A DNA stretch of 64,000 nucleotides from Hevea brasiliensis (lineage: Eukaryota; Streptophyta; Magnoliopsida; Malpighiales; Euphorbiaceae): assembly GCF_030052815.1 (NCBI RefSeq), contig NC_079496.1:79473652-79537651 (forward strand), read 5' to 3'. Under the pieces are notes generated by a model that was not told the DNA's origin, made no database searches, and saw only the letters and a list, made by a program, of their open reading frames with translations. A program made the translations under genes and the position numbers. Every line of letters starts with the position of its first letter. The stretch's first letter is position 1. Positions 29,424 through 64,000 of the stretch are shown here, piece after piece.

Positions 29424-32119
29424 TTAAACTCAAATTTCGAACCGTAAAAAGTGACGCTGCGGTCCTTAGGACCCTTATGGACACAGTGGAAAAGAGAAAA
29501 TCACGAAAAAGAACTGTTAAGTCAGTCAAATAATTAGGTCGTGAGCGGAAGAAATATTGAATTATTTGCAAACCGGGATGAACCGACGAGGGGCAATTTG
29601 GTCAATTGACCCCGAGAGCTGACTCCTGACCTAACTGTCAAATAAAATCGGAGAAAAGAAAATTTCGGAATCGAGAATTAAATTAAAAAACTAATAGAAA
29701 AAAAAAGAAAAAAAAAAAGAAGAAGATAGAAAAGTTAAAGATGATGACATCATGAATGATGTCAATAAGAAATTAATTAAGTTATTTATTAAATGGGATT
29801 TTGTGGTCTTCCATCAACTAAAATAAATTAAGAAAAGAAAAAAATTAACAACAAAAAGTCATCTTCATCTTCTCAAAAACGTCACTCTCTTCTCTCCCTC
29901 ACAAAACCACCATGAAAGCTCATTTTTGAGCTTGAAAAACTAAAATCCAACCATACAAAATTGTTCTACCATAAGTAGACCTTGTTTGGGCAACTAAGAA
30001 AGAAGATTCAAGGAAAAGAAAGAAAAAAATTTGAAGAAAAGGAGGAAGAAAATTCTGCTCAAGGTATAGTACTATAAACTTCAATTTTTATTGTTTAATT
30101 AGTGTTAGTGTGGCATCAAGAGCTTGTAAATAAACTTGAAATGAAATAAAATCATGGGAGAAGGACTAAACTGAAATTTTGGCTTGGTTGATGGGAGTAT
30201 GATTGGTATGGTTTGATGTGTTTAAAGGGAATTAAAGATGTTAATAAACTTACATTAGTATGGTGTTAAGATGGAAATGCACCAATTGTGATTGAATGAG
30301 TGAGTTAGGGTTTCAATGCTAGGGTTTATGAACCAAAATTTGGAGAAATGCATAAATGGCATGTTTAACCTATTGTGAAATGAAATAATGGTCAATTATG
30401 ACCAAATAACTTGTGTGGGAATGATAGGAATGAAAACTAAATTCGGAGGTAAATGGTCATGCTGCTGGCAGCATGACCAAACCCACTTTGAAGGACCAAA
30501 ACTCAAATTTTACAAGTCCAATTGATATGCCACCAATTGGAGATGAAAATAGATATAAAAGAGCACAATTTTCATTAAGGAACCATAGCCAAAAACTGAC
30601 CAAAACTTGGTGAAACAATTGACCAAAGTGAGTTGATAGCAGGCTGCCACTGCACTAAACTGACCAAATGAACAGTAACTGTTCATTTGGTCATAACTCG
30701 AGCTAGGTAGGTCAAATTGACCTGAAATTTTACCAGCAATTAGATATGATATAGATATAAAACTTTCATGAAGAACACCAACCCAAATTAGGCCATTAAC
30801 CCTTTCAAAATCATTGAGCAAAATTAAATTACTGTACTGAGATTCTGCAGAATTTTCATTGAGCAGCAATGTTTGGATGGCTATAACTCTCTCTAGAAAA
30901 CTCAGATTTAGGCGATTCTTGAACCGATGGAAACCTAAGACATAGTACAACATTTCATATGAAGAAAGTGAGACCAAATTATGAACTTAACTTGATCAAA
31001 TAATTGACCAAAGTTGGACCAAAAACCTGCCAGCACCTAAATTGCAGTATGAACAGTGCACGTGAACAGTAAACTTATTTTGGCCATAACTTGAGTTACA
31101 AAACTCCGATTGAGGTGATCCAAAAATGAGAATACATTTAAGACAATAAGGAACATTTTCTATGAAGGAAGTTTTGTCAAATTCCAACAGTAGATCGACC
31201 AATGGAACAGTGCAACTTCGGAGAACCAAAACCGAAAATTGGCAATTTTGCCAAAATGACCTAAGCTTTAAACAAATGACCAAAACCAACAAGTTTGGTG
31301 ACCAAAATGTGGTATGTGGGTGAAGTTGGAGTTCCCATACCCATTAAGCCTTAGAAAGTCAATAATTTGACTTGAATAGTGCAGTGAATAGTAACCCAAA
31401 ACACAAAATTTCGAGAACGTCGAATTTAACACGTTAGAGCTAGGTAAATGTGAAGTTAAGTTTATTTTGGATTTATTTTAAGTTTTAGTACTGAAACATT
31501 GGAAAATTTCGTGTTTCAGTGGAAAAGAATACTGGGACAGAACCCGAGGAGTCGAGTCAAGGCCAACAGGCGACTCGTTTGAGGTTTGTGCACAACATAT
31601 ACTTTTATAATCATCTTTTGCATATCGTTTTGAATAATATGAAATATTGGATTATGGCATTTTATGATGTTTGATCTAAATTGTTGAAAGTTATTATGTA
31701 TATTTGAAAAGACAATGTTTAGCAAATCGTTAAGATAAGTTTTGAAACCACGATGTCATGACCACATATTTGAACACCTCACTAGCACGACTAGTGGGGG
31801 TAATTAGTTTTGAATTTTGATTCCTTCTCTGGAGAAGTGTTGAGGTGTGCCAGTAGAAGAGGATGTGAATGGATATCCATATATGTGAGCTAGCTAGCCT
31901 TGTGATATGATTTCTCTTTAGTCTCTGGCTATTGAGATTCTATTTGTTTCGAATGGCGTGATCTAACTGTGGGTTTTATGAAATGTGTTTTGATACTTTG
32001 AAACGAACTTGGTTTACATGTAAAACCTTACAATGCATGATTGTATTTAATTTTCATGTTTAGCCAAATTTTTTAATGAATGTGCTTTAAGTTTTGCATA
32101 AAGATTATTTTAGTATATT

Positions 32120-37704: not shown

Positions 37705-40700
37705 TGTAACACCCCCGTTTGCATAGCCTGGTAGATTTCACTGTTCCGGTGACCGGTGTCGGTTCGGACAATTAAGGAGATTAGAGCCACATTTAAGACA
37801 ACAGGAGAAGCCATAAACACAAATAATTAGTAATGTTTAACTAGTTAACTACAAATAAGAAAAACATAACATAAGAGGTTAAACGAGCCGAGAGTCACAG
37901 CGATGAGTGACCTTCTCGGGAACGACTGCGAAGTCGTTTTAAACTCAAATTTCGAACCGTAAAAAGTGACGCTGCGGTCCTTAGGACCCTTATGGACACA
38001 GTGGAAAAGAGAAAATCACGAAAAAGAACTGTTAAGTCAGTCAAATAATTAGGTCAGGGAGCCGGAAGAAATATTGGATTATTTGCAAACCGGGATGAAC
38101 CGACGAGGGGCAATTTGGTCAATTGACCCCGAGAGTGACTCTGACCTAATCACAAATAAAATCGGAGAAAAGAAAATTTCGGAATCGAGAATTAAATTAA
38201 AAAACTAATAGAAAAAAAAAAAGAAGAAGAAGATAGAAAAGTTAAAGATGATGACATCATGAATGATGTCAATAAGAAATTAATTAAGTTATTTATTAAA
38301 TGGGATTTTGTGGTCTTCCATCAACTAAAATAAATTAAGAAAAGAAAAAAATTAACAACAAAAAGTCATCTTCATCTTCTCAAAAACGTCACTCTCTTCT
38401 CTCGCTCACAAAACCACCATGAAAGCTCATTTTTGAGCTTGAAAAACTAAAATCCAACCATACAAAATTGTTCTACCATAAGTAGACCTTGTTTGGGCAA
38501 CTAAGAAAGAAGATTCAAGGAAAAGAAAGAAAAAAAATTTGAAGAAAAGGAGGAAGAAAATTCTGCTCAAGGTATAGTACTATAAACTTCAATTTTTATT
38601 GTTTAATTAGTGTTAGTGTGGCATTAAGAGCTTGTAAATAAACTTGAAATGAAATAAAATCATGGGAGAAGGACTAAACTGAAATTTTGGCTTGGTTGAT
38701 GGGAGTATGATTGGTATGGTTTGATGTGTTTAAAGGGAATTAAAGATGTTAATAAACTTACATTAGTATGGTGTAAAGATGGAAATGCACCAATTGTGAT
38801 TGAATGAGTGAGTTAGGGTTTCAATGCTAGGGTTTATGAACCAAAATTTGGAGAAATGCATAAATGGCATGTTTAACCTATTGTGAAATGAAATAATGGT
38901 CAATTATGACCAAATAACTTGTGTGGGAATGATAGGAATGAAAACTAAATTCGGAGGTAAATGGTCATGCTGCCCACTTTGAAGGACCAAAACTCAAATT
39001 TTACAAGTCCAATTGATATGCCACCAATTGGAGATGAAAATAGACATAAAAGAGCACAATTTTCATTAAGGAACCATAGCCAAAAACTGACCAAAACTTG
39101 GTGAAACAATTGACCAAAGTGAGTTGATAGCAGGCTGCCACTGCACTAAACTGACCAAATGAACAGTAACTGTTCATTTGGTCATAACTCGAGCTAGGTA
39201 AGTCAAATTGACCTGAAATTTTACCAGCAATTAGATATGATATAGATCTAAAACTTTCATGAAGAACACCAACCCAAATTAGGCTATTAACCCTTTCAAA
39301 ATCATTGAGCAAAATTAAATTATTGTACTGAGATTCTGCAGAATTTTCATTGAGCAGCAATGTTTGGATGGCTATAACTCTCTCTAGAAAACTCGAATTT
39401 AGGCGATTCTTGAACCGATGGAAACCTAAGACATAGTACAACATTTCATATGAAGAAAGTGAGACCAAATTATGAACTTAACTTGATCAAATAATTGACC
39501 AAAGTTGGACCAAAAACCTGCCAGCACCTAAATTGCAGTATGAACAGTGCACGTGAACAGTAAACTTATTTTGGCCATAACTTGAGCTACAAAACTCCGA
39601 TTGAGGTGATCCAAAAATGAGAATACATTTAAGACAATAAGGAACATTTTCTATGAAGGAAGTTTTGTCAAATTCCAACAGTAGATCGACCAATGGAATA
39701 GTGCAACTTCGGAGAACCAAAACCGAAAATTGGCAATTTTGCCAAAATGACCTAAGCTTTAAACAAATGACCAAAACCAACAAGTTTGGTGACCAAAATG
39801 TGGTATGTGGGTGAAGTTGGAGTTCCCATACCCATTAAGCCTTAGAAAGTCAATAATTTGACTTGAATAGTGCAGTGAATAGTAACCCGAAACACAAAAT
39901 TTCGAGAACGTCGAATTTAACACGTTAGAGCTAGGTAAATGTGAAGTTAAGTTTATTTTGGATTTATTTTAAGTTTTAGTACTGAAACATTGGAAAATTT
40001 CGTGTTTCAGTGGAAAAGAATACCGGGACAGAACCCGAGGAGTCGAGTCAAGGCCAACAGGCGACTCTTTTGAGGTTTGTGCACAACATATACTTTTATA
40101 ATCATCTTTTGCATATCGTTTTGAATAATATGAAATATTGGATTATGGCATTTTTATGATGTTTGATCTAAATTATTGAAAGTTATTATGTATATTTGAA
40201 AAGACAATGTTTAGCAAATCGTTAAGATAAGTTTTGAAACCACAGTGTCATGACCACATATTTGAACACCTCACTAGCACGACTAGTGGGGGTAATTAGT
40301 TTTGAATTTTGATTCCTTCTCTGGAGAAGTGTTGAGGTGTGCCAGTAGAAGAGGATGTGAATGGATATCCATATATGTGAGCTAGCTAGCCTTGTGATAT
40401 GATTTCTCTTTAGTCTCTGGCTATTGAGATTCTATTTGTTTCGAATGGCGTGATCTAACTGTGGGTTTTATGAAATGTGTTTTGATACTTTGAAACGAAC
40501 TTGGTTTACATGTAAAACCTTACAATGCATGATTGTATTTAATTTTCATGTTTAGCCAAATTTTTTAATGAATGTGCTTTAAGTTTTGCATAAAGATTAT
40601 TTTAGTATATTGTGCACCACTGAGTCCTAGTACTCAGCGATAGCTTTTATTGCTGTCGCAGATACAGAGACTAGAGGAGCAGCAGACTGAGCTGCTGAGG

Positions 40701-48449: not shown

Positions 48450-48563
48450 AGTCAATTCGAGGATCTTAGACCTCCTGAACAAATAACACAAGGGGATTTC
48501 CTCCCGTTAGTGCATATTTATAATGTAATGTACTGTATATATCAAACAATGACATTGAGCAGT
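48450..48563 (-). other. Leader of element D, cut by element F
   Basis: Reverse complement of the leader seen in A and E, including the block that reads ctgctcaatgtca and the gggaggaaatcccc inverted repeat (48492-48505). The remainder and D's 5' LTR are displaced past the window end by F and G. gcagt at 48559-48563 is F's expected left target-site copy. Confidence 0.8.
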
Positions 48564-51500
48564 TGTAACACCCTCCCTGTAGCAATTTTGTACATTCTAC
48601 TGTTTCGGTGATTGGTGTCGGTCCGGATAGCTAAAATGTCTGAAAAAATATTTAAACTAAAGTGAGGAACTATAATTAACTCAAATATTAATAAGAAAAA
48701 TTTAGGAAAAATTTTAGAAATAAAATACAACCAAGTTAAATGAGCCGGTGCCCTAGCGATGGGTAACCTAGTGAGAAGTTACGGTTCTCGCAACTAGGAG
48801 CCCTAGACCCGGGGGAAAAATTATAAAATAATTTCTGAGACTCCAGAGAAGGGTTATTGAGGTTCTTATGGCATTAGAATGCCAAGAAAATACTTAAAAA
48901 AAATTTCAATCAGTACAGACAATTTTGGCTCGTTAAGCCAAACGGAGGGCATTTTGGTCATTTCGCCTTCAGAGGTGATTTTCGGCCGACTTGTCCAGTT
49001 AAGTAAATAATTATTATGACATAAAATGTGAATAAATATTACTAAAAATTGAATTGAAAATGAGTAAAAAAGAAAAGAAAAAAAAATGAATTAAATGGGA
49101 ATTTATGACATCACATGATGTCATTAGTGTGCCTTCACCCACTCAAGTGTTGACACATGGCATAAATGTGTTTAAAAAGACAAAATGGGCTGAAAATAAA
49201 CAAAAAAATCAGACCTTTCACTCCCTTTCTTCTTCCTTGCGTGAACCTTCTCCATAACCAATATTTTCAAGCTTTTTCAAAGCTTGATTTTACAAACTTC
49301 TACCCAACAAAACCCTAAGCTAGCAACATAAAAATTTGTTCTTACATCCTAGTGAAGCTTTTGGGAGCAAAAAAAAGTGGAAAACAAGAATTTGATCAAG
49401 TGGGAAATTCACTCCATAAGAGGTTAGTGACCTAAACCTTGAATTTCACTTTAATTTCATGTTTAAGAACTATGAATGTGTAAATGACAAAGAAATTTGA
49501 TGAAACACCATTGGTATGCTAACCCTAAATTTTGGCAGCCATGGTTAGGGTAATATGGTGATGATTTTTGGGGAGTTAACATGCTAGTGTGGCTGCCCTT
49601 AATATGTATCTTATAAGTGAATTGATAAATGCAATGATAATACATGGTTTTGAAATGTTGAGTTAGGGTTTGGGTTGAAGAATGAGACTTTGATCTTGTG
49701 ATGATGGGAGTAGGTTTTAATGGTCAATTAGTGACCATTTGGTTTGGTTTGAATCAAAAATGAAGTGAATTGGGTTGTGGGATTTAAGGTTGGAGTGGCT
49801 GCCTTGTGTGACCTGCAGGTTTGGATGTGAGTCCAGCCTGTTTGGACAGGCATAACTTGAATTGTAGAGGTTCATTTGGTGTTTGGTCAATTGGAAATAA
49901 AACTAGACACAAAATGGCACAACTTTGGTGAAGAAACCATGCCCATAAGACCAAACTAAATGGACCAAAACCTTGCTCCAATCTGGGTGACCTGCAATTT
50001 GCCTGGGCAAAATGACTAAATGAATAGTATTTGGTCATTTGGCCATAACTCAATCTAGCAAGGTCCAATTGACCTGAAATTTTACCAGCAACAAGTTGAG
50101 GTATATACCAACAACTTTTATGAAGAAATTTGACCCAAATTATGATCATAACCTAGTCAAATTGCCAACCAAACTTGAGTTACCAAATCTGGCAGAAACA
50201 ACTTTACCCAGAATTTTGGAATCTATCCAATCCGGCCAATTATGGTTTTTAGGCCATAACTTGAGCTACAAAACTCCAAATGGAGTGATTCAAAAAAGGA
50301 AATTCAACTATACAAAATAAGGAACAACTTTTATGTTGATCATTTTTCCAAATTCCCACTGAAAAGGTGACTAATGGAATAGTAAACCCAAAGCTTGAAA
50401 ACTGAAAATTCTATCCAATTCACTTTAAGCTTAGAGATGGTATTGGCAACCAATACCAACAAGTTTAAAATGAAAAATGTGGTATGTTGATGATATTTAA
50501 ACTAATTTACCTATTGTCAATGCAAAAGTTAACATTTTGGTTGACCAATGAAATGAATAGTAATCATAAAAATTCAATTTCGAAGAATTACATAAATGAA
50601 AGTGTTAAATGCCCTAGTAGGCCTAATGTGATTGGTTTGGATAGGTTGGCATGCCAATAGGGTTCTGTTAGCAGTACTGCATATGGCTTCATGCCATTCT
50701 GTATTTCATGGCTTCCCATGCCATTCTGTGACATAATAGCCTTTGGCTATGATATTGAGTTGTTATACTCGGGTTTAATCCCCAATAATTATCACAGCTT
50801 ATTAGTTGTTATGTTGCACACTGGGAGATATAATGTGACCGATGGTGTGATGGTCCGAGGTACTTAGTACCCAGTACCAGTTTACTCATTTATCCAGTCC
50901 AGTCAACTAGTATAGGTTACTCGGGCAGTATTAATAAATCTTACCAAACTTCAATTGAATAATATTGCAATAAACATTTGAGACTTAGTTCACCCAAAAA
51001 TGTAAACATATATTCTGTACACATGTTTTTATTTTATTTTATTTTATTTTATATTGTCACCACTAAGCAGAATTGCTTAGCGCGTCGCTTTTGCCATGCC
51101 CAGGTACTAGAGACATAGCTGGGGAGTCCAGCAGGCCTCATACAGGGTGAGCCTTCATATCTGCACTCAGAGTTCAGAGTCACCTCACATTACAGTGCAT
51201 TTGGTAGGACATTAGGCCACTTTTGATATTTTGATATTTTGTATTTTGTAACCTTCTGTAATGTATATTATAAATTCATGTAATCAAGCTTTTGATGTAA
51301 GTATCTATGAAATATGTTCAGTAATAAATTGAGCATTTTTCATTGAGTTGACTGTGTTTTGAATTGAATTGAATTTTGAGATACTAAAGTGAATTGAGAA
51401 AGTGTTGAGTATATATTGGAGGTTGATTGAGAATAATGTGATGATATTATTGGGAGTGTTTTTAACAGCTTCAGAAGAACTGTTTTTCCAATTTATCGCC

Positions 51501-51670
51501 GGCACTCTACCGGATTTTCTATAAAATTTGCGGAAAAATTTAGTTTTATCAGAAATTATAAATAAATGAATTAAAAGGGATTAATTGAAATTAAAACATG
51601 AATTGGTGTTCCGACACACTGAGTGGCATAACTTGCTCGGCTACACTATAGACGGGTAAGGGGTGTCACA
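48564..51670 (+). mobile_element. Element F 5' LTR, 3107 bp
   Basis: tgtaacaccctccctgtagc to cgggtaaggggtgtcaca. It contains a short (ATTTT)n run at about 51029-51052, the block reading gaggtacttagtacccag near 50859 (an inverted repeat in the other copies) and the double stem-loop at 51057-51105. Confidence 0.92.
51057..51105 (+). other. Conserved double stem-loop (F 5' LTR)
   Basis: CTAAGCA-gaat-TGCTTAG (51063-51080), then CGCGT with a partly decayed partner (atgcc), followed by caggtac. Confidence 0.65.
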
Positions 51671-51779
51671 TCGGTTTAGGCGTTTCTGGGTCTAGATAGA
51701 GTACATACCATTGCATTGCATTTGTAATTGTTGAGGTGACACTGATGCAGATCTGTTGTTTTCTTATTTTGAATAGGTT
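51671..51779 (+). other. Element F leader lacking the primer-binding site
   Basis: Here ggtgtcacat is followed directly by cggtttaggcgtttctggg. Element G has 17 extra bases at this point that carry tggtatcagagc. The rest of the leader matches G (gaggtgacact, cgcagatctg-like block). Confidence 0.8.
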
Positions 51780-52792
51780 ATGGATCTTGCTTCGCAAAGA
51801 GCAGTTGATGAAGAGGTGGAGAGTCATGCTCCACCAAGGGCTGAGTCTGGGGGCAGGGGAGAATCTGCTCCACCAGCAGCTGAGCCACCTGCTCAACCTC
51901 AGTTTGCTCTATTCCAGCAAATGACCGAGTTCTACCAGCAAATGATGGGGGCAATTCCACCACCACAACCACAACCTCCACCAGCACCACAGAAGTCCCA
52001 TTTGGAGAAATTGTGAAAACATGGGGCTGTAGACTTCTTTGGGAAGAAGGAGGATGATCCCATGGCTGCAGAAAATTGGTTGGACAGAACCATCAGAGTA
52101 CTGAAACAGCTAAACTGCACCCCCTAGCAGAACCTAGTGGGTGCTGTGTCCCTATTACAGGATGACGCATATCAGTGGTGGGACACAGTAACCAGTAAGG
52201 TGCAACCTGAACGGATCACCTAGGAATTCTTCCTTATAGAGTTCAGAAAGAAATATATTAGCAAAGTGTATTTAGAAGAGCGAAGAAGGGAATTCATCAG
52301 TTTGAGATAGAGACAGTTGTCGGTGGCTGAGTATGAGCGTGAGTTTGTCAAACTGAGCCGGTATGGGAGGGAGATAGTCCCTACCGAGGCAGAGAGATGC
52401 AGACGGTTTGAGGAAGGGCTCAATGACAACATCAAAGTTATGATCACAGCACTGGAGATTACGGATTTTGCTAAACTGGTAGATGCAGCATCAAAAGTGG
52501 AAAGGGTCAGAATCAATGAACAAAAGAGAAGGGAAAGACAGCAGAAGAGGGGTCCGGGTCAGTCCAGCGCATTTTCTGCACCCAGTAAGAAGAGTAAGGG
52601 TCCTCCTGCTCAGAGTTTAGGACCACTATAGGGTCAGGGTCAATCTCAAGGGCCCAGACTGTAGTTCACACCTAGGAGAGGCCAGCCCACACCATCAATG
52701 GGTAGCTCTCCAGGGACGGTGTTTAGGGGACCAGCCCTTGCATCTTCTGCCTGTCAGTTTGTCAGAAGTGGCATAAAAGGGAGTGTTGGCGA
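51780..52792 (+). pseudogene. gag: Gag (element F)
   Basis: ATG at 51780 (MDLASQRAVDEEVESHAPP). An acidic, Pro/Gln-rich N-terminus is followed by the Gag domain (DAYQWWDTV, then SVAEYEREFVKLSRYGREIV, CRRFEEGLND) and a basic Lys/Arg/Gln tail to 52628. In-frame stops: TGA at 52014, TAG at 52125, 52221, 52308 and 52629. The first zinc knuckle, complete in G as CPHCQKWHKGEC, is frameshifted here (52750-52785). The sequence is clearly related to family I Gag but with a different N-terminus. Confidence 0.87.
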
Positions 52793-54439
52793 GTGACCGG
52801 TGCATGCTTACAGTGTGGATCGACAGAACACCAGATCAAGAATTGTCCGAAAAGGACTACTACTGTTGCTCCAACACAAACTGACAGACCTACTCCTGCA
52901 CCACAAAGAGGTAGGAAGCCTGGTAAACCTGAGGCAGCTGGTCCATCACTGAGGCCTACATTCGAGTCAACTGAGAGGCTAAACACTAGAATACCAGCTA
53001 GGGCTTATGCCATCAGAGCTCAAGAGGAGCAAGATGCCCCGGATGTCATCAGGGGTACGTTTTCCCTCTACAACACTTCTGTACATGCATTGGTGGATCC
53101 AGGATCCACTCATTCCTACATTTGCATCAAACTGCCCATAGAGAGGGGAGTTCCAGTAGAGGAGAGTGATGAAGACATTCTTGTCACAAATCCACTAGGC
53201 CACAGTGTGATAGTGAATAAGGTGTATAAAGGTTGCCCGTTGAGGATTCAGGGGTATGAATTCTCGGCAGACCTAATTGAATTGCCCTTCCACGAGTTTG
53301 ACGTGATTTTGGGAATGGACTGGTTGTCACGTCATCAAGCAATAGTTGATTGTAAATTGAAGAGAATTTCTCTGAAAACTTCTGAGGATAATGAGATCAC
53401 TGTTGTGGGTGAAAGGATGATTTCTGTCAATGTTATCTCACTACTGATTGCAAGAAGACTGATGAGAAAAGGCTGTGAAGCTTACCTAGCACACGTGGTT
53501 GATACTAGGCAAGCTAAGCCAAACCTGAATGATATACCCACAGTAAGAGACTTCCCAGATGTATTTCCTGAAGAGTTGCCTGGTTTACCACCAGGAAGGG
53601 AAGTCGAGTTTGCTATTGAGGTAATGCCGGGTACAGCACCCATTTCCATTGCTCCTTATAGGATGGCACCCACTGAATTGAGGGAGTTGAAAACTCAGTT
53701 GCAAGAGTTGCTTGATAAGGGGTTCATACGCCCCAGAGTGTCACCATGGGGAGCTCCGGTGCTGTTTGTGAAGAAAAAGGATGGAACTTTGAGATTGTGT
53801 ATTGATTACCGGCAGTTAAATAAAGTAACTGTGAAGAATAAATATCCATTGCCCAGAATTGACGATATGTTTGATCAGTTGAAGGGAGCCGGTGTATTTT
53901 CAAAAATTGACTTCAGATCAGGGTATCATCAGTTGAGGGTAAAGGATGTGGATGTGTCAAAAACTGCATTCAGAACCCGGTATGGGCACTATGAATTTCT
54001 AGTGATGCCGTTTGGGTTAACAAATGCACCAGCAGCATTTATGGACCTTATGAACCGTATCTTCCATCCATACTTAGATCGATTCGTAGTGGTATTTATT
54101 GATGATATTCTGGTGTATTCCAAGACCAGGGAAGAACATGATGAACATTTGAGGATTGTTCTGCAAACCCTGCGAGAAAAGAAGCTGTATGCTAAGTTGT
54201 CCAAGTGTGACTTCTGGATGAGTGAAATCTCTTTCCTTGGACACATAGTATCAGCAAAGGGGATTAGAGTGGATCCCAAAAAGATAGAAGCAGTGATGGA
54301 ATGGAAGCCTCCTAGAAATACAACTGAGGTCAGAAGTTTCTTGGGGCCAGCTGGGTATTACAGAAGATTTGTGAAGGGATTTTCCTTAATAGCTGCTCCA
54401 ATGAGCAAGTTGTTACACAAGAATGTCAGATTTAACTAG
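52793..54439 (+). pseudogene. pol: Gag C-terminus, protease and RT (element F), 548-codon frame
   Basis: Starts in the second zinc knuckle ([14 protein letters not shown]). Protease: VDPGSTHSY with the catalytic Asp codon at 53096, and the [14 protein letters not shown] segment. [53 protein letters not shown] and the catalytic FIDD at 54095-54106. A substitution gives [10 protein letters not shown] where all other copies have [10 protein letters not shown]. It stops at a TAG (54437-54439) where G has TGG. This is the only copy here with protease and RT palm in one open frame, which shows Gag and Pol were encoded as one polyprotein. Confidence 0.93.
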
Positions 54440-55309
54440 AATGACAAATGTCAGGCTAGTTTTGAGAGATTAAAGGCTATGTTGTCAGAGGCACCAGTGT
54501 TAACATAGCCAGTGTCAGGAAAGGACTTTGTGATCTACAGTGATGCCTCATATAATTGGCTAGGGTGTGTATTGATGCAAGAGGGGAAAGTGGTCGCCTA
54601 TGCTTCCAGGCAGTTAAGGCCACATGAACAAAACTACCTTACTCATGACCTAGAGTTAGCAGCGATTATCTTCGCACTGAAGATATGGAGGCATTATTTA
54701 TATGGTGAAAAATGCTACATCTATACCGACCACAAGAGTCTAAAATATTTGCCAACCCAGAAGGAGCTCAATCTTAGACAGAGGCGATGGATTGAGTTCC
54801 TAAAGGACTATGATTGTGTGATAGATTATCATCCTGGGAAGGCAAATGTAGTTGCTGATGCTTTAAGCAGAAAGTTCATCACAGCTTTAAGATCACTCAA
54901 TGCCTGTCTGTCCTTAGCTCAAGATGGAGCTATTTTGGCTGAGTTGCAAGTGAGGCCAACCCTACTACAGCAAATACAAGATAGGCAGAAGGCAGATGAA
55001 AAACTAATGGCAATTATGGCTAAAATTCCTAAGGGGAAGGAAACTGAATATGAGGTGAAAGCAGATGGGTGTCTATACTACAGAGGAAGAGTGTGTGTAC
55101 CAGGTGATGGGGAACTGAAGGCTAGTATTCTGAAAGAAGCACACACGAGTGTTTATGCTATGCACCCGGGGAGCACAAAAATGTATAATGATTTGAAGCC
55201 TCATTATTGGTGGCCTGGTATGAAGAGGGATATAGCTGACTATGTGACTAAATGCTTGACATGTCAGCAAGTTAAGGCAGAACATCAAGTTCCATCGGGT
55301 TTGTTCTGA
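54440..55309 (+). pseudogene. pol: RNase H and integrase zinc finger (element F)
   Basis: In frame with the RT after two TAG stops (54437, 54506). RNase [25 protein letters not shown] and [10 protein letters not shown] (54530-54875). Integrase N-terminus: an H-x6-H (HTSVYAMH) and CLTC zinc finger near 55140-55265. The frame ends at a TGA near 55307, where G reads on into LLQP. Confidence 0.9.
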
Positions 55310-55643
55310 CCTATAAACATACAGAATGGAAATGAGACCGGTCACTATGGATTTTGTTAGTGGTCCGCCCTCACCCAAAGGAAGCATGATGCAAGATGGG
55401 TGATAGTGGATAGATTGAGCCTGATTCTGACAGACCGATGACTACTCACTGGAGAAGCTAGCAGAATTGTATATCAGTGAGATAGTTAGGCTGCATGGAA
55501 TCCCACTTTCTATCATATCTGACCGAGACCCAAGGTTTACATCAAGATTCTGGAAGAAGTTGCATGAATCCTTGGGTACATAACTCCACTTCAGCACAGC
55601 TTTTCATCCTCAGACGGATGGGCAATCAGAAAGAGTAATCCAA
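55310..55643 (+). pseudogene. pol: Integrase catalytic core, exon 1 part (element F)
   Basis: Asp in TMDFVSG (55350-55352), first Asp of SDRDPRF (55521-55523) and Glu of GQSERVIQ (55629-55631) are all present. Between them are frameshifts near 55375-55440 and a TAA near 55580 (CAA in G). It ends at ATC CAA, where the intron begins. Confidence 0.87.
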
Positions 55644-55718
55644 GTACACAACTGAAACCAATTGAACTAATGCAAATATTGAACTAAAATGATAATAATA
55701 ACATGAAATATATGTCAG
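55644..55718 (+). other. Candidate spliceosomal intron, 75 bp, in integrase (element F)
   Basis: Begins gtacac after CAA and ends tatgtcag before GTC CTT GAG. It is GT-AG, phase 0, 25% G+C, with ctaat- and tgataat-like branch-point candidates. Family I elements D and E encode the same protein with no insert here (QILKDM, QILEDM against Q|VLEDM). Read through, it gives a TGA after three codons. Element G has an insert of the same length at the same position (61 of 75 bases identical), while flanking exon sequence is more similar. Confidence 0.8.
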
Positions 55719-56480
55719 GTCCTTGAGGATATGCTGAGGAGTTGTGTCATTGAGTTTGAAGGAAGTTGGGATAGATACCTCCCACTGGCAGAATTCGCAT
55801 ACAACAATAGCTGTCAAGCTAGCATTCAAATGGCTCCGTATGAAGCACTGTATGGGAGGAAATGTAGAACCCCAGTGTGTTGGACTGAATTGGGAGAAGA
55901 TAAGCTGGTAGGACCAGACCTGGTGAAACAGACTGAGGAAAAAGTGAAAATAATCAAAGCTAACCTGAAGATTGCCTCCGATAGCCAGAAGTCTTATGCT
56001 GACCTGAAGAGAAAAGAGATAGAGTATGCAGTTGGTGATAAAGTGTTTCTCAAAGTCTCACCATGGAAGAAAATATTGAGGTTCGGAAGAAAAGGTAAGT
56101 TGAGCCCTAGATTTATTGGCCCATATGAAGTCATTGAACGTGTGGGTCCAGTGGCCTATAGGCTAGCTTTACCACCAGAGCTAGACAAGATCCACAATGT
56201 GTTCCACGTGTCTATGTTAAGAAGATACCGCTCAGATCCTTCACATGTCATCTCCATGGAAGAAATTAAAGTACAACCGAATTTGACATATGAAGAAGAA
56301 CCCATACGAATCCTGGCTCGGGAAGTGAAAGAGTTGAGAAATAAGCAGATCCCACTGGTAAAAGTGCTTTGGAGGCACCACAACACCGAGGAGGCAACTT
56401 GGGAAAGTGAAGAGACGATGAGGCAACAGTTCCCTCAACTGTTTGAATTAGGTAAATTTCGAGGACGAAATTTAAATTAA
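55719..56480 (+). pseudogene. pol: Integrase C-terminus and chromodomain, exon 2 part (element F)
   Basis: Open for the whole segment. [46 protein letters not shown], the GPY/F motif GPYEVIERVG, HVSMLRRYRSDPSH and a chromodomain (YEEEPIRILAREV, then VKVLW, EEATWESEE, PQLFEL). The stop lies in the polypurine tract, so coding reaches almost to the LTR. The reading frame is kept although other parts of F are broken. Confidence 0.93.
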
Positions 56481-56491
56481 AGGGGAAGAGT
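56475..56491 (+). promoter_or_regulatory. Polypurine tract (element F)
   Basis: aaattaaaggggaagagt immediately before the LTR start. It is shorter in G than family I tracts. Confidence 0.85.
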
Positions 56492-56553
56492 TGTAACATC
56501 CTCTCTGTAGCAATTTCGTACACTCTACTATTCCAGTGATCGGTGTCGGTCCG
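56492..56553 (+). mobile_element. Element F 3' LTR, first 62 bp
   Basis: tgtaacatcctctctgtagc to gtgtcggtccg, then cut by element G. It matches the first bases of F's 5' LTR with a few substitutions. The last five bases, gtccg, are G's expected left target-site copy. Confidence 0.85.
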
Positions 56554-56766
56554 TGTAACACCCTCCCGGTAACCACTCCGTACATCCTACTGTTCCGGCG
56601 ATCGGTGTCGGTCCGGACAGCTAGAATGTCCGGAAAAATATTTAAACTAAAGACAGGAACCATAATTAACTCAAATATTAATAAGAAAAATTTAGTAAAA
56701 ATTTTAGAAATAAAATACAACCAAGTGAAACGAGCCGGTGCCCAAGCGATGGGTAACCGGAGGGAA

Positions 56767-56783
56767 GTTGCGGTTCTCGCAAC
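56767..56783 (+). other. Perfect 6-bp hairpin near LTR start (family II)
   Basis: GTTGCG and CGCAAC around gttct, about 214 bp into the LTR after agcgatgggtaacc. It sits in the same place as the AACGACT/AGTCGTT hairpin of element E but has different bases. Confidence 0.6.
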
Positions 56784-59002
56784 GAGGAGCCCTAGACCAG
56801 GGGGAAAAATTGTAAAATAATTTTTGGTATTCCAGAGAAGGGTAATTGAGGTTCCCATGGCATTAGAATGCCAAGAAAATACCTAGAAAAATTTTTCAAT
56901 CAGTACAGACGATTTTGACCCGTTAAGCCAAACGGAGGGCATTTTGGTCATTTCGCCTTCCGAGGTGATTTTTGGCCGACTTGCCCAGTTGAGTAAATAA
57001 TTAATATGACATAAAATATGAAGAAATATTGCTAGAAATTAAATTGAACTTGAGTAGTGGAGGAAAGAAAAGAAATTGAGGAAAAAAGGCTATTTATGAC
57101 ATCATGGGATGTCATTTATAATTTTCAACCAATCACCATAAATCTACCATTTGACTAAACAAATAAAAGACATAAATAAAGACTAAAGAAGACCAAAATT
57201 CCAGCAGCCACCACTCCCACAAAAGCTACCCGTAACTCTAAAAACTCCATAGCCAAACCTCCATTTTCTTCATTTTCAAGCTCTCAAACCTCTCAAACCT
57301 CACCCCAAAACCCTAAGTCATCTTCACTAAAATTAATCTACACACCTTAAACAATCTTTTGGCAGCTAAGAAGAAGAAAGAAAGTGAAGCTTTCTCAAGC
57401 TTGGATTGGCATACAACAAGGTTAGTGCATATATGTAGTTAAAATTCCTTAATCCCATGATTTAGGCTTGAAATGGATGAGAAATTGTAATTTAAATGAG
57501 CAAAAACTCATGTGTATGAAACATGAGTTTCGGCTGCACTAGCTATGGGATAGGAGGGAATGTTTTGATGAGCTTGAAGTGAGCTAGAATCATGTTAGAA
57601 GTTTATAAACACAAGCATAATGAATTAAAAGCTAACTAAAGTAAATTGTATAAAACATGGAATTGAATTAGGGTTTAGGAAAGGTGAAAATTGATTTGGC
57701 TTATGAAATTGTTAGAGGACATATTAATGGTCAATTAGTGACCATTTTAGATGTGTTGACCATAAATGGGACAGAAAAATGAGATTGCAAAGTGAGGATT
57801 GCAGGCTGCCTAGGACAGCAGCATAGGGACTGAAAATTCAATCCCTTTGCACTGCCATAACTTGGGCAGTGGTAGTCCAATTGGTATTTGGCCAATTGGA
57901 CATGAAACTAGGCTTATAATGGCACATTTTTTCTGAAGAAACCATGCCCAAAAGACCAAAGCAAAAGGGTCAAAACTCAGCCACAATCCGGATGCCCTGC
58001 ACTGAATGTTGCAGAATTTTTCAAATGAACAGTAACTGTTCATTTGGCCATAACTCACTGTAGATTTGGTCAATTGGTCTTAAATTTTTACAGCAACAAG
58101 TTAAGACATAGACAAACAACTTTCATGAAGGAACCTACCCCAAATTATGGCCAGAACCCATTCAACCAAGTGACTCAAGTCACTGTTCATGCACTGTATA
58201 TATGGTAAATTTCTGCAGACTGCATATCCGGACAGCCTGGGTTTTTGAGCCATATCTGGAGCTACAAAACTCCAAATGGAGTGATTCAAAAAAATAAATT
58301 CAACTAGACAAAATAAGGAACAACTTTCATGTTTTGCATTTCCTCAAATTCCAACAGTAACAGTGTCCAATGGAACAGTGAAATTGACTCACCAAAATTG
58401 AAAAATCTGTTTGTGTTGAGTTACACTTTGGAATGGCAAAAACACTTAATGCCAACAAGTTTTAAACACCAAATGTGGTATGTTGGGAGTGCCAAAGTTG
58501 ATGTACACATTTTTATTCTAAAAGTCAACATTTTTGTTGACCAATGATGAATAGTAACACCAAAAAAATTGAAATTCACAAATTGACAAATTTAAGAGTT
58601 TCGAATGCCCTAGTATACCTAACAAGATTGGTTTGGATAGTTTGGCATGCCAATAGGGTTCGATTAGCGATCGCACATGGCAAAAATGCCATTGTGATTT
58701 CATGGCTTTTAGCCATTCGACTTTGTATTGAGACTTGGCCTTGTGCGAATATTATTCTGACTTGTTAGGTACATTACATTGCCGGGAGATACGTATGTGA
58801 CCGATGGTGTGACGGCTCGAGTACTAGGTACCCAGTGCGGTTACCGTTATCGATCCGTCATCTAGTATAGGTTACTTGGGGCAACCAAATGAATAAAAGT
58901 GAACAACGTAAATGAAACAATGAATATATCAATACCAAACAAAGAAAGCATACACATTCTATACACATTTATTTTCTTGCTATTTTCTTTTATTATATTA
59001 TT

Positions 59003-59049
59003 GCACCACTAAGCATTATTGCTTAGCGCGTTGCTTTTGCCACGCGTAG
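59003..59049 (+). other. Conserved double stem-loop (G 5' LTR)
   Basis: CTAAGCA-ttat-TGCTTAG (59009-59026), then CGCGT-tgcttttgcc-ACGCG (59027-59046). Best-preserved family II copy. Confidence 0.75.
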
Positions 59050-59684
59050 GTACTGGAGAACCCGATCGCGAGTCCGATGAACCACGGTGGGTGAGTCCAT
59101 CCGCGATTCTGCTCGATGTCCGTGTCACCTCGTCACCTGCAGTTAATTGTTAGGACAATAGATGTAATTTTGTCATTTTGTTATTAAATTTTATTTTATC
59201 ATATGTATTTGGGATTTATGTAATGTATTTTGAGGTTCATGTAAATAATAAAGATTTATGGTCATGTATGGTATTAATTTGAGTATTTAATGGTTGTTTA
59301 TATATGAGAACCCTGAGAAAGGGATGTTTTGAGAAATGAAAAGGTTGTTGAGACCTGAAATTGACAAATTATTGAGATATTGATATTGAGTTTGGTGTTG
59401 ATATTTGAGTATGAGATGATTGAATAAAAATATTGGAAGTGTTTTTAACGAGTTCAGAAGAGCAGTTTTCTCCATTTTTAGCCAGGTACTCATGGATTTT
59501 CTTAAAAATTTTCGGAACCTTAAATGAATGATACTTTTGATAAATGGTTTAAATAAATTGTATTTAATAAATTATATGCAAAAGCATTGTCTAAATTAAT
59601 TGAGGAATATTAGAGTGTGCCGGTATACCAGGTGGCATTACTTACTCGGGTATACTGTACACGGGTAAGGGGTGTCACATTTAG

Positions 59685-59696
59685 TGGTATCAGAGC
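59685..59696 (+). promoter_or_regulatory. Primer-binding site (initiator tRNA-Met)
   Basis: tggtatcagagc, five bases after the LTR end. Confidence 0.93.
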
Positions 59697-59806
59697 ACGG
59701 TTTAGGCGTTTCTGGGCCTAGATTGAGTCCATACCATGCATTGCATTTGTAAGAGTCGAGGTGACACTAACGCAGATCTGTCTATCTTTCTTATTTTGAA
59801 TAGGAT

Positions 59807-60830
59807 ATGGACCCTTCATCTCAGAGAGCCGTTGAGGAGGAAGTGGAGAGTCATGCTCCACCTGCAGCAGCTGAGACTGGGGGCATGAGAGAATCTGCTC
59901 CGCCAGCTCAAGCAGAGCCTGCTTAGCCTCCACAGGCCATGTTTCAACAAATGGCCGACTTCTTTAGACAAATGGCCGAGGTAATGCCAGCACCACCACC
60001 ACCACCACCAGCTCCACAGCAGAAATCACACCTGGAAAGGCTAAGGAAGTTTGGAGCTGTGGATTTCTATGGCAAGAGAGAAGATGACTCATTGCGGTAG
60101 AATTGGTTGAGCAGGCAGGCAGAGTCTTAAAACAACTCCACTGCACCCCAGAGCAGAACTTAGAAGCTGCTATATCCTTGTTACAAGATGATGCCTACGG
60201 ATGGTGGGACACTGTGTCCAGTGAAGTGCAGCCCGAAGCTGTAACTTGGGACTTCTTCCTCTCTGAGTTCAAGAAGAAATATGTGGAGTCTTGTATACGG
60301 AAGAGAGAAGAAGGGAATTCATTAACTGAGGCGAGACGGTTGTCGATGGCGAGTATGAGAAGGAGTTTGTTCGGTTAAGCCGCTATGGAAGGGAAATAGT
60401 CCCTAACGGTGAAAGGTGCAAGAGATTTGAAGAGGGTGAATGACAATATCAAGATACTGACTCAACGCCTTGGGAATCACAGAATTTAGCAAGCTAGTGG
60501 AAGCTGCAATAAGGGTTGAAAAAGTGAGAATCAATGAGCAGACCAGAAGGGAGAGACAGCAAAAGAGGGGACCAGGTCAGTCTAGTTCTGCCCCTGGATT
60601 TGGGAAGAAGTTCAAGGGTCCTCCTGCACGAGTTGGGTCAGCCACGGTCGTGGTCGATCTCGAGGCCTGAGCAACGATTCACCCCTAGGAGAGGTCAGTC
60701 CACACCATCAGTGGGCAGCTCTCCAGGGATGGGGTTCAGGGGACCAGCCCCAGCATCTTCTGCGTGTCCACACTGTCAGAAATGGCACAAGGGGGAATGT
60801 TGGAGAGTGGCGGTGCTTGCTTGAGATGTG
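59807..60830 (+). pseudogene. gag: Gag (element G)
   Basis: ATG at 59807 (MDPSSQRAVEEEVESHAPP). In-frame TAG at 59924. Gag domain pieces at 60103-60300 (LHCTPEQN, DAYGWWDTV, FFLSEFKKKYV), with the rest shifted. The first zinc knuckle is complete (CPHCQKWHKGEC, about 60760-60805). The second knuckle near 60820-60870 is frameshifted. Defects such as gaggcgagacggttg, where F reads gagatagagacagttg, lie at CAG/CTG sites. Confidence 0.85.
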
Positions 60831-61649
60831 GGTCGACAGAACATCAACTGAGGAACTGCCCACGCTAAACTACTAAAGCTTCTCAGACACAAGCAGACAG
60901 ACCTGCTCCTTCACCACCAAGGGGTAGAAGGTCTGGTAAATCCGAAGCTGTGGGACCATCTCAGAGGCCTACATCTGAGCCAGCAGAGAGGCCAGATAAC
61001 AGACCACCTGCCATAAATTATGCCCTGAGAGCTCAGGAGGAGCAAGATGCCCCGGACGTTATCAGGGGTACGTTCTCCCTCTACACTACACCTGTGCATG
61101 CATTGGTGGATCCAGGATCCCCTCATTCCTACAGTTGCATCAATCTACCCGTAGAAAGGGGATCTTGGTAGTGTAAAGTGACCAAGACATTCTGGTCACT
61201 AATCCATTGGGTCATAGTGTGGTAGTGAACAAGGTATACAAAGGTTGCCCGTTGAGGATTCAGGGGTATGAATTCTTGGCAGACCTGATTGAGTTGCCTT
61301 TCCATGAGTTTGGCGTGATTTTGGGAATGGGTGGTTGTCACGTCATCAGGCAATAGTTGATTGCAAATTGAAGAGAATTTCTCTAAAAACTTCTGAGGGT
61401 AATGAGATCACAGTTGTGGGGGAAAGGACAGATTTCTTGTCCAATGTCATCTCAGCCACTGTTGCAAGAAGAATGATGAGAAAAGTAAGTGAAGCCTACC
61501 TAGCACATGTGGTGGATACTAGGCAGGCTAAGCCAAACTTGAGTGACATACCCACAGTGAGAGACTTCCCAGAAGTATTTCCTGAAGAGTTGCCTAGTTT
61601 GCCACCAGAAAGGGAAGTCGAGTTTGCTATTGAGACAACTGCAGTCTGA
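60831..61649 (+). pseudogene. pol: Protease (element G)
   Basis: Frame at 60950-61171 carries [20 protein letters not shown] and the catalytic VDPGSPHSY (Thr of the usual STHSY is Pro). A frameshift follows, then 61335-61649 carries [14 protein letters not shown] and the linker ([19 protein letters not shown]). The GMDW segment is damaged (atgggtggttg where F has atggactggttg). Confidence 0.85.
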
Positions 61650-62243
61650 CACCCATTTCTATTGCTCCTTATAGGATGGCACCCTTTGAATTGAGGAGTT
61701 GAAAACTCAATTGCAAGGATTCTTTGGATAAGGGGTTCATACGCCGATGTGTCACCATGGGGAGCTCGGTCTGTTTGTGAAAAAGAAGGATGGGACTTTG
61801 AGGCTATGCATTGATTACCGCGATTGAATAAAGTGGTATGAAGAACAAGTATCCGTTGCCTAGAATTGATGATCTGTTTGATCGGTGAAGGAGCGGAGTA
61901 TTTTCTAAGATTGATCTCGGATCGAGGTATCATCGGTGAGGGTGAAAGATGTAGATGTGCCCAAGGCGCATTCAGGACCGGTATGGGCATTATGAGTTTC
62001 TGGTGATGCCCTTTGGCCTAACAAATGCACGATGGCGTTCATGGACCTTATGAACCGTATCTTCCATCCATACCTAGATCGGTTTGTAGTGGTTTTATTG
62101 ATGACATTCGGTGTACTCCAAGACCAGGAAGAACATGATGAGCATTTGAGGATTGTTACGCAAACCACGAGGAAAAGAAGTCGTATGCTAAGTTGTCCAA
62201 ATGTGACTTTTGGATGAATGATATTGCATAACTAGGACACATA
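61650..62243 (+). pseudogene. pol: Reverse transcriptase palm, heavily frameshifted (element G)
   Basis: Aligns base by base with F 53640-54230 but with many small deletions. [25 protein letters not shown] and part of the catalytic FIDD region are readable in different frames. Almost every defect coincides with CAG/CTG in F. Confidence 0.85.
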
Positions 62244-62948
62244 GTGTCAGCTGATGGGATTAGGGTGGATCCCAAGAAAATAGAAGCAGTGATGGAATGG
62301 AAGCCTCCCAGAAATACAACTGAGGTCAGAAGCTTCTTGGGGCTAGCTGGGTATTATAGAAGATTTGTGAAGGGATTTTCCCTAATAGCTGCTCCAATGA
62401 CCAAGTTGTTACACAAGAATGTCAGATTTGACTGGAATGACAAGTGCCAGACCAGTTTTGAGAGGTTGAAGGCTATGTTGACAGAGGCACCAGTGTTAAC
62501 ACAGCCAGTGTCAGGAAAGGACTTTGTGGTCTATAGTGATGCCTCACATAATGGGTTAGGGTGTGTATTGATGCAAGAGGGGAAAGTGATCGCCTATGCT
62601 TCCAGGCAGCTAAGGCCACATGAACAGAACTACCCTACCCATGATCTAGAGCTTGCAGCAATTATCTTCGCACTGAAGATATGGAGGCATTACTTGTATG
62701 GTGAAAAGTGCTACATTTACACAGACCACAAGAGCCTAAAATATTTGCCAACCCAGAAGGAGCTCAACCTTAGACAGAGGCGATGGATTGAGTTCCTGAA
62801 GGATTATGACTATATAATTGACTACCATCACAGGAAGGCAAATGTAGTTCTTGATGCCTTGGCGAGAAAATCCATGACGACCTTGAGATCATTGAATGCC
62901 CGTCTATCTTTAGTTTGTGATGGAGCTATCTTGGTGAGTTGCAAGTGA
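62244..62948 (+). pseudogene. pol: RT connection and RNase H (element G)
   Basis: A clean 234-codon stretch: [40 protein letters not shown] and the RNase H end, where ADALSRK has become LDALARK. Confidence 0.9.
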
Positions 62949-63643
62949 GGCCAAACACCTACTGCAGATTTTAGATGGGCAAAGCGGATGAGAAGCTAAT
63001 GGCTATTATGAGCAAAATCCCAGAGGGAAAAGCAACTGACTATGAGGTGAAAGCATATGAGTGTCTGTATTACAAAGGAAGACTGTGTGTACCAGATAAT
63101 GGGGAATTGAAAGCCAGTATTCTAAAAGAGGCACACACGGTGTATATGCTATGCACCCGGGAAGTACAAAGATGTATCATGACACGAAGCTTGATATTGG
63201 TGGCACAGTATGAAGAAGCACATAGCTGACTATGTGACAAGATTCATGAAATGTCAGCAAGTCAAGGCAGAACATCAAGTTCCATTGGGTTTGCTACAGC
63301 CTATACGCATACCTGAATGGAAATGGGATCGTGTCACCATGGATTTTGTAAGTGGTCTACCTCTCACCGGAAGAAACATGATGCGACATGGGTGATAGTT
63401 GATAGATTGTGAAGTCGACACACTTCTGCCGATTAGGGTGACTACTCACTGGAGAAGTTAGCAGAATTGTATATCAGTGAGATAGTTAGACTGCATGGAA
63501 TTCCACTTTCCATCATATCTGACCGAGACCCAAGGTTTACATCGAGATTTTGGAAGAAGTTGCATGAATCCTTGGGTACACAACTCCGTTTCAGCACAGC
63601 TTTCCATCCTCAGACGGATGGGCAATCTGAAAGAGTAATCCAG
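62949..63643 (+). pseudogene. pol: Integrase zinc finger and core, exon 1 part (element G)
   Basis: Zinc finger damaged (first His present, CxxC altered to RFMKC). Core: Asp in TMDFVSG near 63340, frameshift near 63370-63440, then [12 protein letters not shown] and GQSERVIQ with the Glu at 63629-63631. It ends ATC CAG at the intron. Confidence 0.88.
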
Positions 63644-63718
63644 GTAAATAATTGAAACCAATGAAATTGATACAAATATTGAATTGAAATGATAACAATA
63701 ACGTGAAATACTTGTCAG
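63644..63718 (+). other. Candidate spliceosomal intron, 75 bp, in integrase (element G)
   Basis: Begins gtaaat after CAG (a CAG|GTAA donor close to the plant consensus) and ends cttgtcag before GTC CTT GAG. GT-AG, phase 0, 24% G+C, with tgataac as a branch-point candidate. A TGA follows three codons into the intron if it is not removed. Confidence 0.82.
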
Positions 63719-64000
63719 GTCCTTGAGGATATGCTGAGGAGTTGTGTCATTGAGTTTGAGGGAAGCTGGGATAGATACCTCCCACTGGCAGAATTTGCAT
63801 ACAACAATAGCTACCAAGCTAGCATTCAAATGGCCCCATATGAAGCACTGTATGGGAGAAAATGTAGAACTCCAGTGTGCTGGACTGAATTGGGCGAAGA
63901 CAAACTGGTAGGGCCAGACCTGGTGAAACAGGCTGAGGAGAAGGTGAAATCAATCAAAGCCAACTTAAAGATTGCCTCAGACAGACAGAAATCTTATGCC
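63719..64000 (+). pseudogene. pol: Integrase C-terminus, exon 2 part, cut by window edge (element G)
   Basis: [40 protein letters not shown] and EKVKSIKANLKIASDRQKSY, open to the last base. The GPY/F segment, chromodomain and 3' LTR would lie beyond the window. Confidence 0.92.

Follow-up and report, generated by a model that had tools for sequence, protein, structure and literature searches.

A putative spliceosomal intron in the integrase of a chromodomain-bearing Ty3/gypsy family of Hevea brasiliensis, kept in most copies and precisely absent from others

How a retrotransposon can use one RNA as its messenger and also as its genome has long been asked, and the integrase gene of element F in Hevea brasiliensis puts it in concrete form: is the short block that interrupts this gene a spliceosomal intron, and which RNA was copied when the element spread? 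The block lies in a window of 64,000 nt, i.e., the whole stretch of H. brasiliensis DNA analyzed here, and genome-wide pattern searches covered the 1.88 Gb genome. An earlier note on this DNA had described a 75-bp, phase-0 GT...AG block with 25% G+C in the integrase of element F, located four codons after the catalytic Glu and containing an early in-frame TGA, and the window sequence together with a family alignment bore out each of these points. The insert (55644–55718; plus strand, as are all features of F and its neighbor G given below) separates ...GQSERVIQ from VLEDML, the codon of the catalytic Glu is the GAA at 55629–55631, and the TGA (55653–55655) is the fourth codon of the insert. 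We read the insert as a putative spliceosomal intron.

The putative 5' splice site of F is GTACAC (55644–55649), where most relatives have GTAAAC. With CAA/GTACAC (the slash marks the border) F is atypical, being the sole GTAC among 70 aligned inserts, most others reading CAG/GTAAAC. The putative 3' splice site AG is found at 55717–55718, and TAAC at 55699–55702, whose last A is 17 nt upstream of the insert end, is a candidate branch site.

The exon 1 end preceding the insert (55440–55643) encodes the part of the integrase catalytic core with the second Asp and the catalytic Glu, which we take to be the catalytic residues, also from an alignment made with the related protein P0129. Exon 1 of F contains a TAA stop codon at 55581–55583, and the open reading frame ends earlier still, at 55309. 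Because this stop lies 20 codons upstream of the insert, copy F is a dead copy and not a working integrase. Exon 2 (55719–56480) encodes the remaining integrase core, an SH3-like domain, a chromodomain and the stop. The integrase C-terminal domain SH3_Tf2-1 (PF24626) covers residues 106–171 of exon 2 (56034–56231) and includes a GPY stretch, presumably the GPY/F motif; the chromodomain (PF00385) covers residues 197–242 (56307–56444) and scored 26.4 bits against a cut-off of 25.1. The start of the LTR downstream of F was found at 56489–57116, and the beginning of this LTR occurs twice in succession, at 56489–56553 and again from 56554 onward.

With its chromodomain at the integrase C-terminus, the insert-bearing family is a chromodomain-bearing Ty3/gypsy family, i.e., a chromovirus. 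Family copy L072 has RT_RNaseH, Integrase_H2C2 and rve in the Ty3 order, the rve match scoring 22 bits and hence below its cut-off of 32.6, and the best solved relative of P0129 is Ty3 Gag-Pol (7q5b). Judging from sequence resemblance, the family may belong to the Tekay/Del clade.

The window contains a second insert-bearing copy, G, which the earlier note had not mentioned. Its insert (63644–63718, CAG/GTAAAT ... TGTCAG) is 81% identical to that of F and lies between an exon 1 end at 63440–63643 and an exon 2 start at 63719–64000 that runs past the window end. The two copies have 12 differences in 204 bases before the insert, 14 in 75 inside it and 26 in 281 after it. They stand head to tail about 8.0 kb apart, apparently with a common middle LTR (window 48561–64000), and a primer-site-like motif, TGGTATCAGAGC, follows this middle LTR at 59685. 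In G, CAG/GT occurs at both insert borders (63639–63645 and 63714–63720), as in most family copies, which could be a trace of how the insert was gained or just splice consensus.

Elements D and E, which belong to a family other than that of F and G, had been described as ungapped at this site. This held: the gap in E is 0, and D reads TTCAG/ATTTTGGAGG across the site, its ungapped state having been read from the sequence, as exon pairing gave no result for D. On the minus strand, two near-identical open frames of 158 codons were found about 8.5 kb apart (30510–30986 and 39001–39477), perhaps located in the two LTRs of element D.

We aligned 70 inserts, i.e., the 30 copies closest to F (F included), 39 of 40 copies from a chromosome-1 list of 3'-border matches, and G; exon pairing failed for copy L071 and element D, which were left out. 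The insert was 75 bp long in 62 copies and 74 bp in eight. GT was kept in 69 of the 70 and AG in all 70, where 39 rows had been picked by a 3'-border pattern that contains AG and 30 by similarity to F. TAA of the candidate branch site was present in 70 of 70 and its C in 68, so that TAAC stood 17 nt before the insert end in 68 of 70. An in-frame stop occurred within the first four codons of every insert (codon 4 in 69, codon 1 in the other). The possibility raised earlier that most copies would have lost GT or AG or carry the insert in random states hence found no counterpart in these pattern- or similarity-selected inserts. Eight copies (L054, L056, L060, L061, L064, L072, L077 and L062) lack one base near insert position 12; seven of these inserts are 74 bp long and L062 regains a base elsewhere, while the eighth 74-bp insert lacks its first G. 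The insert length is thus not kept at a multiple of three.

The genomic tests that we ran mostly favored an intron, with a mixed result for base composition. G+C was 23.5% in the insert, and 104 bases of flank had 47.7%. The excess is in A, which makes up 50% of the insert, whereas U is at 26.5% close to the 25.9% of the flanks. Typical plant introns are U-rich according to a passage in PMC3735527, and an A-rich rather than U-rich insert is atypical for plants and may be spliced weakly or leakily.

Divergence was analyzed in 40 rows, namely the chromosome-1 sample and G, with rows carrying indels near the junction left out of the codon counts. Mean pairwise divergence at codon positions 1, 2 and 3 was 4.6, 3.0 and 9.4% in the last 204 bp of exon 1 (31 usable rows) and 5.5, 3.6 and 12.9% in the first 480 bp of exon 2 (21 rows passing the no-indel filter), and the insert itself diverged by 11.3% (32 rows of 75 bp). 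Exon 2, although located behind a stop present in 70 of 70 inserts, thus appears to have evolved as coding sequence, and the insert diverges like third codon positions. Both adjoining stretches (68 and 160 codons) were free of stops in 10 of 40 intron-bearing and 8 of 26 intron-less copies.

Genome-wide, a 221-base query gave 3,134 candidates, and all 40 that were scored, F included, span the insert at 96–100% identity, well beyond what chance would give. A 24-base pattern of the 3' border matched 9,469 times and a 30-base pattern of the empty site 887 times, each with at most three mismatches and with no match of the reversed control. Intact empty sites fit the 24-base pattern at exactly three mismatches, and 9,469 is therefore an upper figure for intron-bearing sites. 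Judged from these patterns, thousands of copies would carry the insert and hundreds would lack exactly this block, at a rough ratio of nine or ten intron-bearing copies per intron-less copy, the two counts not being cleanly comparable.

In the intron-less loci that we fetched, the gap was 0 in 26 of 26, and exon 1 and exon 2 were joined in phase in all of them. As these loci came from the empty-site pattern, we ran a pattern of the flanks only, which permitted gaps of 0–30 between exact flanks and hence placed partial deletions leaving 31–74 bases outside the count. It gave 428 matches, and 100 of the 100 listed, i.e., in positional order from contig C1 to part of C4, had a gap of exactly zero.

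We built trees from 1.4 kb upstream of the insert and from 480 bp of exon 2, keeping 70 of 81 and 93 of 97 rows, respectively, at 90% coverage and 80% identity to F. On the upstream tree the nine intron-less rows need at least eight losses (7–8 over the bootstrap trees), and a single intron-less clade was rejected (p 0.003). On the exon-2 tree 26 intron-less rows need 20 losses (17–20 over the bootstrap trees), and a single clade was again rejected (p 3e-8). Neither tree's bootstrap settled, inner support being weak, and the strongly supported branches alone force four changes on the upstream tree and two on the exon-2 tree; moreover, template recombination would blur both loss trees. An initial upstream tree of the full 81 rows was discarded because foreign insertions had misplaced long branches; it likewise needed eight changes. 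Labels of intron presence were about as scattered as shuffled labels: on the upstream tree 160 of 500 shuffles were as low for copies with the intron and 151 of 500 for copies without it, and on the exon-2 tree 61 and 35 of 500, respectively. Exact losses are not confined to one lineage and apparently represent many separate events. The earlier note had not anticipated such numerous exact intron-less copies, beside which the intron nevertheless persists.

We consider it highly probable that the insert is a spliceosomal intron of the family that is only partly removed, and that spliced RNA is now and then reverse-transcribed, leaving exact intron-less copies. That unspliced RNA would be packaged beside splicing had been proposed before, and the genomic copies agree with the use of both RNA forms: both must presumably have been used, because most copies keep the insert and many lack exactly this block. 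In the mechanism that we propose, the intron-keeping RNA would be the template reverse-transcribed in most new insertions, and the intron would persist because most new copies come from unspliced RNA. The spliced RNA would be the only form that can be read as a whole integrase with C-terminal domain and chromodomain. It would be packaged and reverse-transcribed occasionally, each such event giving a new copy that lacks the intron exactly to the base. From the genomic copies we infer splicing in the plant, packaging of both forms and the choice of the form that is translated.

Within this explanation, a narrower reading is that the intron is real but neutral, i.e., gained by chance, spliced inefficiently and kept through mostly unspliced packaging with no regulation, and we give it an even chance. 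The insert evolving about as fast as third codon positions would fit, as would a leaky splicing that its A-rich rather than U-rich composition might give. The scatter of presence labels, close to that of shuffled labels, points the same way. Moreover, seven of the eight losses on the upstream tree fall on tips, and as tips account for some 85% of the branch length within the family, this is about as many as would be expected. For the same reason we do not claim that intron-less copies are dead ends, a question for which the tip losses have no power. Neutrality fits less well with the coding constraint on exon 2, which suggests that a route to full-length integrase has been needed, and with the fact that loss is irreversible, yet most copies, across several insert subfamilies, kept the intron. 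A more tentative proposal, to which we give distinctly less credence, is that the intron works as a switch. Unspliced RNA would be packaged and would make RT with a truncated or absent integrase tail, whereas splicing would license the chromodomain integrase and set the amount of targeted integrase; intron-less copies would then be a leak from the translated to the replicated pool, and the intron would be held because copies without it spread less well.

Exact loss could in principle arise with no splicing at all, if the insert were a mobile or duplicated block whose bordering CAGGT repeats permit its removal by deletion or template switching. Such direct repeats are present, with 5 bp in 47 of 70 and 6 bp in eight of 70 copies (55 of 70), and slippage between them would yield a base-identical product; the borders of copy F have only GT in common. 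Deletions in the flanks, however, behaved differently: in 1,404 and 1,193 alignment columns of 69 and 76 copies we found 12 deletions of at least 20 bp, all of them different, where the 90% coverage filter upstream would hide flank deletions of more than about 140 bp. Yet the flanks hold 40–56 comparable 5-bp repeat pairs 70–80 bp apart in each of the six copies analyzed. Recurrent exact loss is hence special to the GT...AG borders in the sample examined. The uniform zero gap in the 100 listed flank-only matches (gaps of 0–30 permitted), the conserved GT, AG and in-frame stop, and an exon 2 that is still coding are not expected from repeat deletion either, and we regard it as very improbable.

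Similarly improbable in our view is that the intron-less copies descend from an old lineage that predates the intron and was brought into the family by recombination or gene conversion. Elements D and E, outgroups within the window that are both without the insert, would fit such an order of events, as would the few changes that well-supported branches force on the two trees. Recombination is also plausible given that distances in the insert and upstream of it agree only moderately (Mantel r 0.42 in 60 rows, permutation maximum 0.20; 0.28 in a 34-row sample, permutation maximum 0.286). Against this stand the rejection of a single clade on two separate trees and the sequence around the junction. 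Had one old lineage been spread by recombination, a short haplotype common to the intron-less copies would be expected, and even short conversion tracts of one donor should have produced a difference, but intron-bearing and intron-less haplotypes did not differ in any of the six flank intervals compared among rows free of indels near the junction (lowest permutation p 0.42). At 12–72 bp before the junction, mean differences were 0.060 and 0.051 within the groups and 0.055 between them (p 0.85).

The LTR pairs of two intron-less copies also argue against an old lineage. An LTR start was found at about the usual distance after exon 2 in 10 of 10 intron-less loci examined. In two of four loci a 5' LTR was found about 7.0–7.1 kb upstream, with LTR pairs diverging by 0.031 and 0.015 (625 and 699 aligned positions); it was not found in the other two within the 1.5 kb fetched. 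At a substitution rate of 1.3e-8 per site per year, these divergences would correspond to ages of roughly 1.2 and 0.6 million years, and both LTR pairs are thus young.

A last alternative is that the insert is translated by ribosomal bypass or stop read-through and splicing is unneeded. The early in-frame stop in all 70 inserts is a point in its favor, but it has practically no chance: in the eight 74-bp inserts (seven with an internal one-base gap, one without the first G) read-through would shift the frame of exon 2, the divergence of the insert resembles that of third codon positions, and exact genomic loss would be left unexplained.

With the intron as the preferred reading, what would the unspliced RNA encode? 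It had been proposed that it gives an integrase that keeps its catalytic residues and lacks the chromodomain. As stated, this proposal is weak, because translation would end three residues beyond the cut, and copy F is moreover broken upstream. Judged by retroviral integrase structures, so early an end would also take away later helices of the catalytic core. The cut presumably falls in the helix that carries the Glu, and the unspliced product would end about one helical turn past this residue. The alignment of P0129 to the Ty3 and PFV integrases gives a match that runs well past the cut point. The Pfam rve model, on the other hand, is nearly complete before the cut (positions 7–101 of 102), a point against calling the integrase core fully destroyed. 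A metagenome open reading frame, P0001, is 93% identical over 90% of the query and ends in the unspliced reading ...ERVIQVNN; we take it as a sign that such a frame exists and not as protein evidence.

Among known systems, Ogre (Ty3/gypsy, Tat lineage; pea and Medicago) has its intron between protease and RT, and CRR, the rice centromeric retrotransposon, is a chromovirus of the CRM clade. The Hevea insert is not at the Ogre position: at 74–75 bp, it sits in the core of the integrase, four codons past the catalytic Glu, in an element that bears a chromodomain. A report of intron-less Ogre copies was not found in the open-access literature searched. Plant LTR elements are generally without introns, Ogre and EVADE being the notable exceptions according to a passage in a 2025 review (PMC12786077). 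There, EVADE (Ty1/copia, Arabidopsis) is listed together with Ogre among plant LTR elements whose intron is functional; it differs in forming a subgenomic RNA via alternative splicing, and the passage makes no mention of an integrase intron.

The barley element BARE1 (Ty1/copia) is alike in that splicing accompanies separate RNA pools for translation and replication, as described in part of PMC3735527. Its facultative intron of 104 nt, however, lies in the gag region, and its removal switches pol off and leaves only Gag (PMC3735527), whereas intron removal in the Hevea family would open the end of pol. The Hevea insert is in integrase and not in gag, and its removal left the exons in phase in all intron-less loci fetched. 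CRR resembles the Hevea family as a Gypsy element with spliced transcripts, but its splicing removes RT and makes two frames, and the sentence in PMC3735527 that describes this does not mention an integrase intron; spliced Bagy2 transcripts are mentioned in the same source. The earlier note knew of no description of this intron for chromoviruses, and we did not find the integrase position in the open-access literature; splicing as such is not entirely new in a chromovirus, as spliced CRR transcripts, with the splicing at another place, are mentioned in PMC3735527.

Related observations come from passages of other papers. In sunflower, splicing yields isoforms with truncated proteins (PMC7730604), and for the soybean element Diaspora it was speculated that packaging and reverse transcription of a misspliced RNA could give an env-less element in one step (PMC1142308). 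In a sugar beet chromovirus paper (PMC3605345), as far as its text was available, 'intron' occurs once, for an insertion into a host gene. We found no description of an intron in a plant Ty3/gypsy integrase in the open-access literature, as judged mostly by titles and the start of abstracts. Very probably, then, the Hevea insert is a real intron that thousands of copies keep and that has been exactly lost on many occasions; its position, within the integrase core ahead of the chromodomain, was found nowhere in this literature.

In intron-marked yeast Ty elements the intron is absent from new copies made through RNA, according to a passage in PMC12786077. That intron was inserted by experimenters, whereas the Hevea genome holds both outcomes side by side, and the family may be regarded as a natural version of the intron-marked retrotransposon experiment. 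It seems to be a natural record of how one RNA serves as messenger and genome: as each insertion keeps or lacks the intron, the genome would keep count of the RNA forms used as template. Genome sequence alone could thus suffice to measure what fraction of spliced RNA is reverse-transcribed, how this fraction has changed over time and how it depends on subfamily.

Beyond the Hevea copies, no relatives were confirmed in IMG/VR. From three protein searches we took the best 120 of 8,000, 8,000 and 7,566 hits, giving 313 proteins, 163 of which have a TDGQ-type motif at the site. The tails of eight of the 163 differ from the usual reading by our filter, and among these only P0001 ends in VNN. The 163 motif-bearing proteins, from the best 120 of each list, gave no evidence of the insert outside Hevea, the lists being too narrow to exclude it. 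Two gene models are worth describing. P0291 from Gossypium raimondii ends QSERVIQLSVQY; it leaves the usual reading at the residue where the Hevea insert does, owing perhaps to an artefact of the gene model or to an interruption that arose independently at this site. The Hevea gene model P3X46_034358 (P0261) reads SERVIQVLEDML unbroken through the junction and is either an intron-less copy or a spliced model; it is without two other integrase stretches, as if the model were spliced elsewhere.
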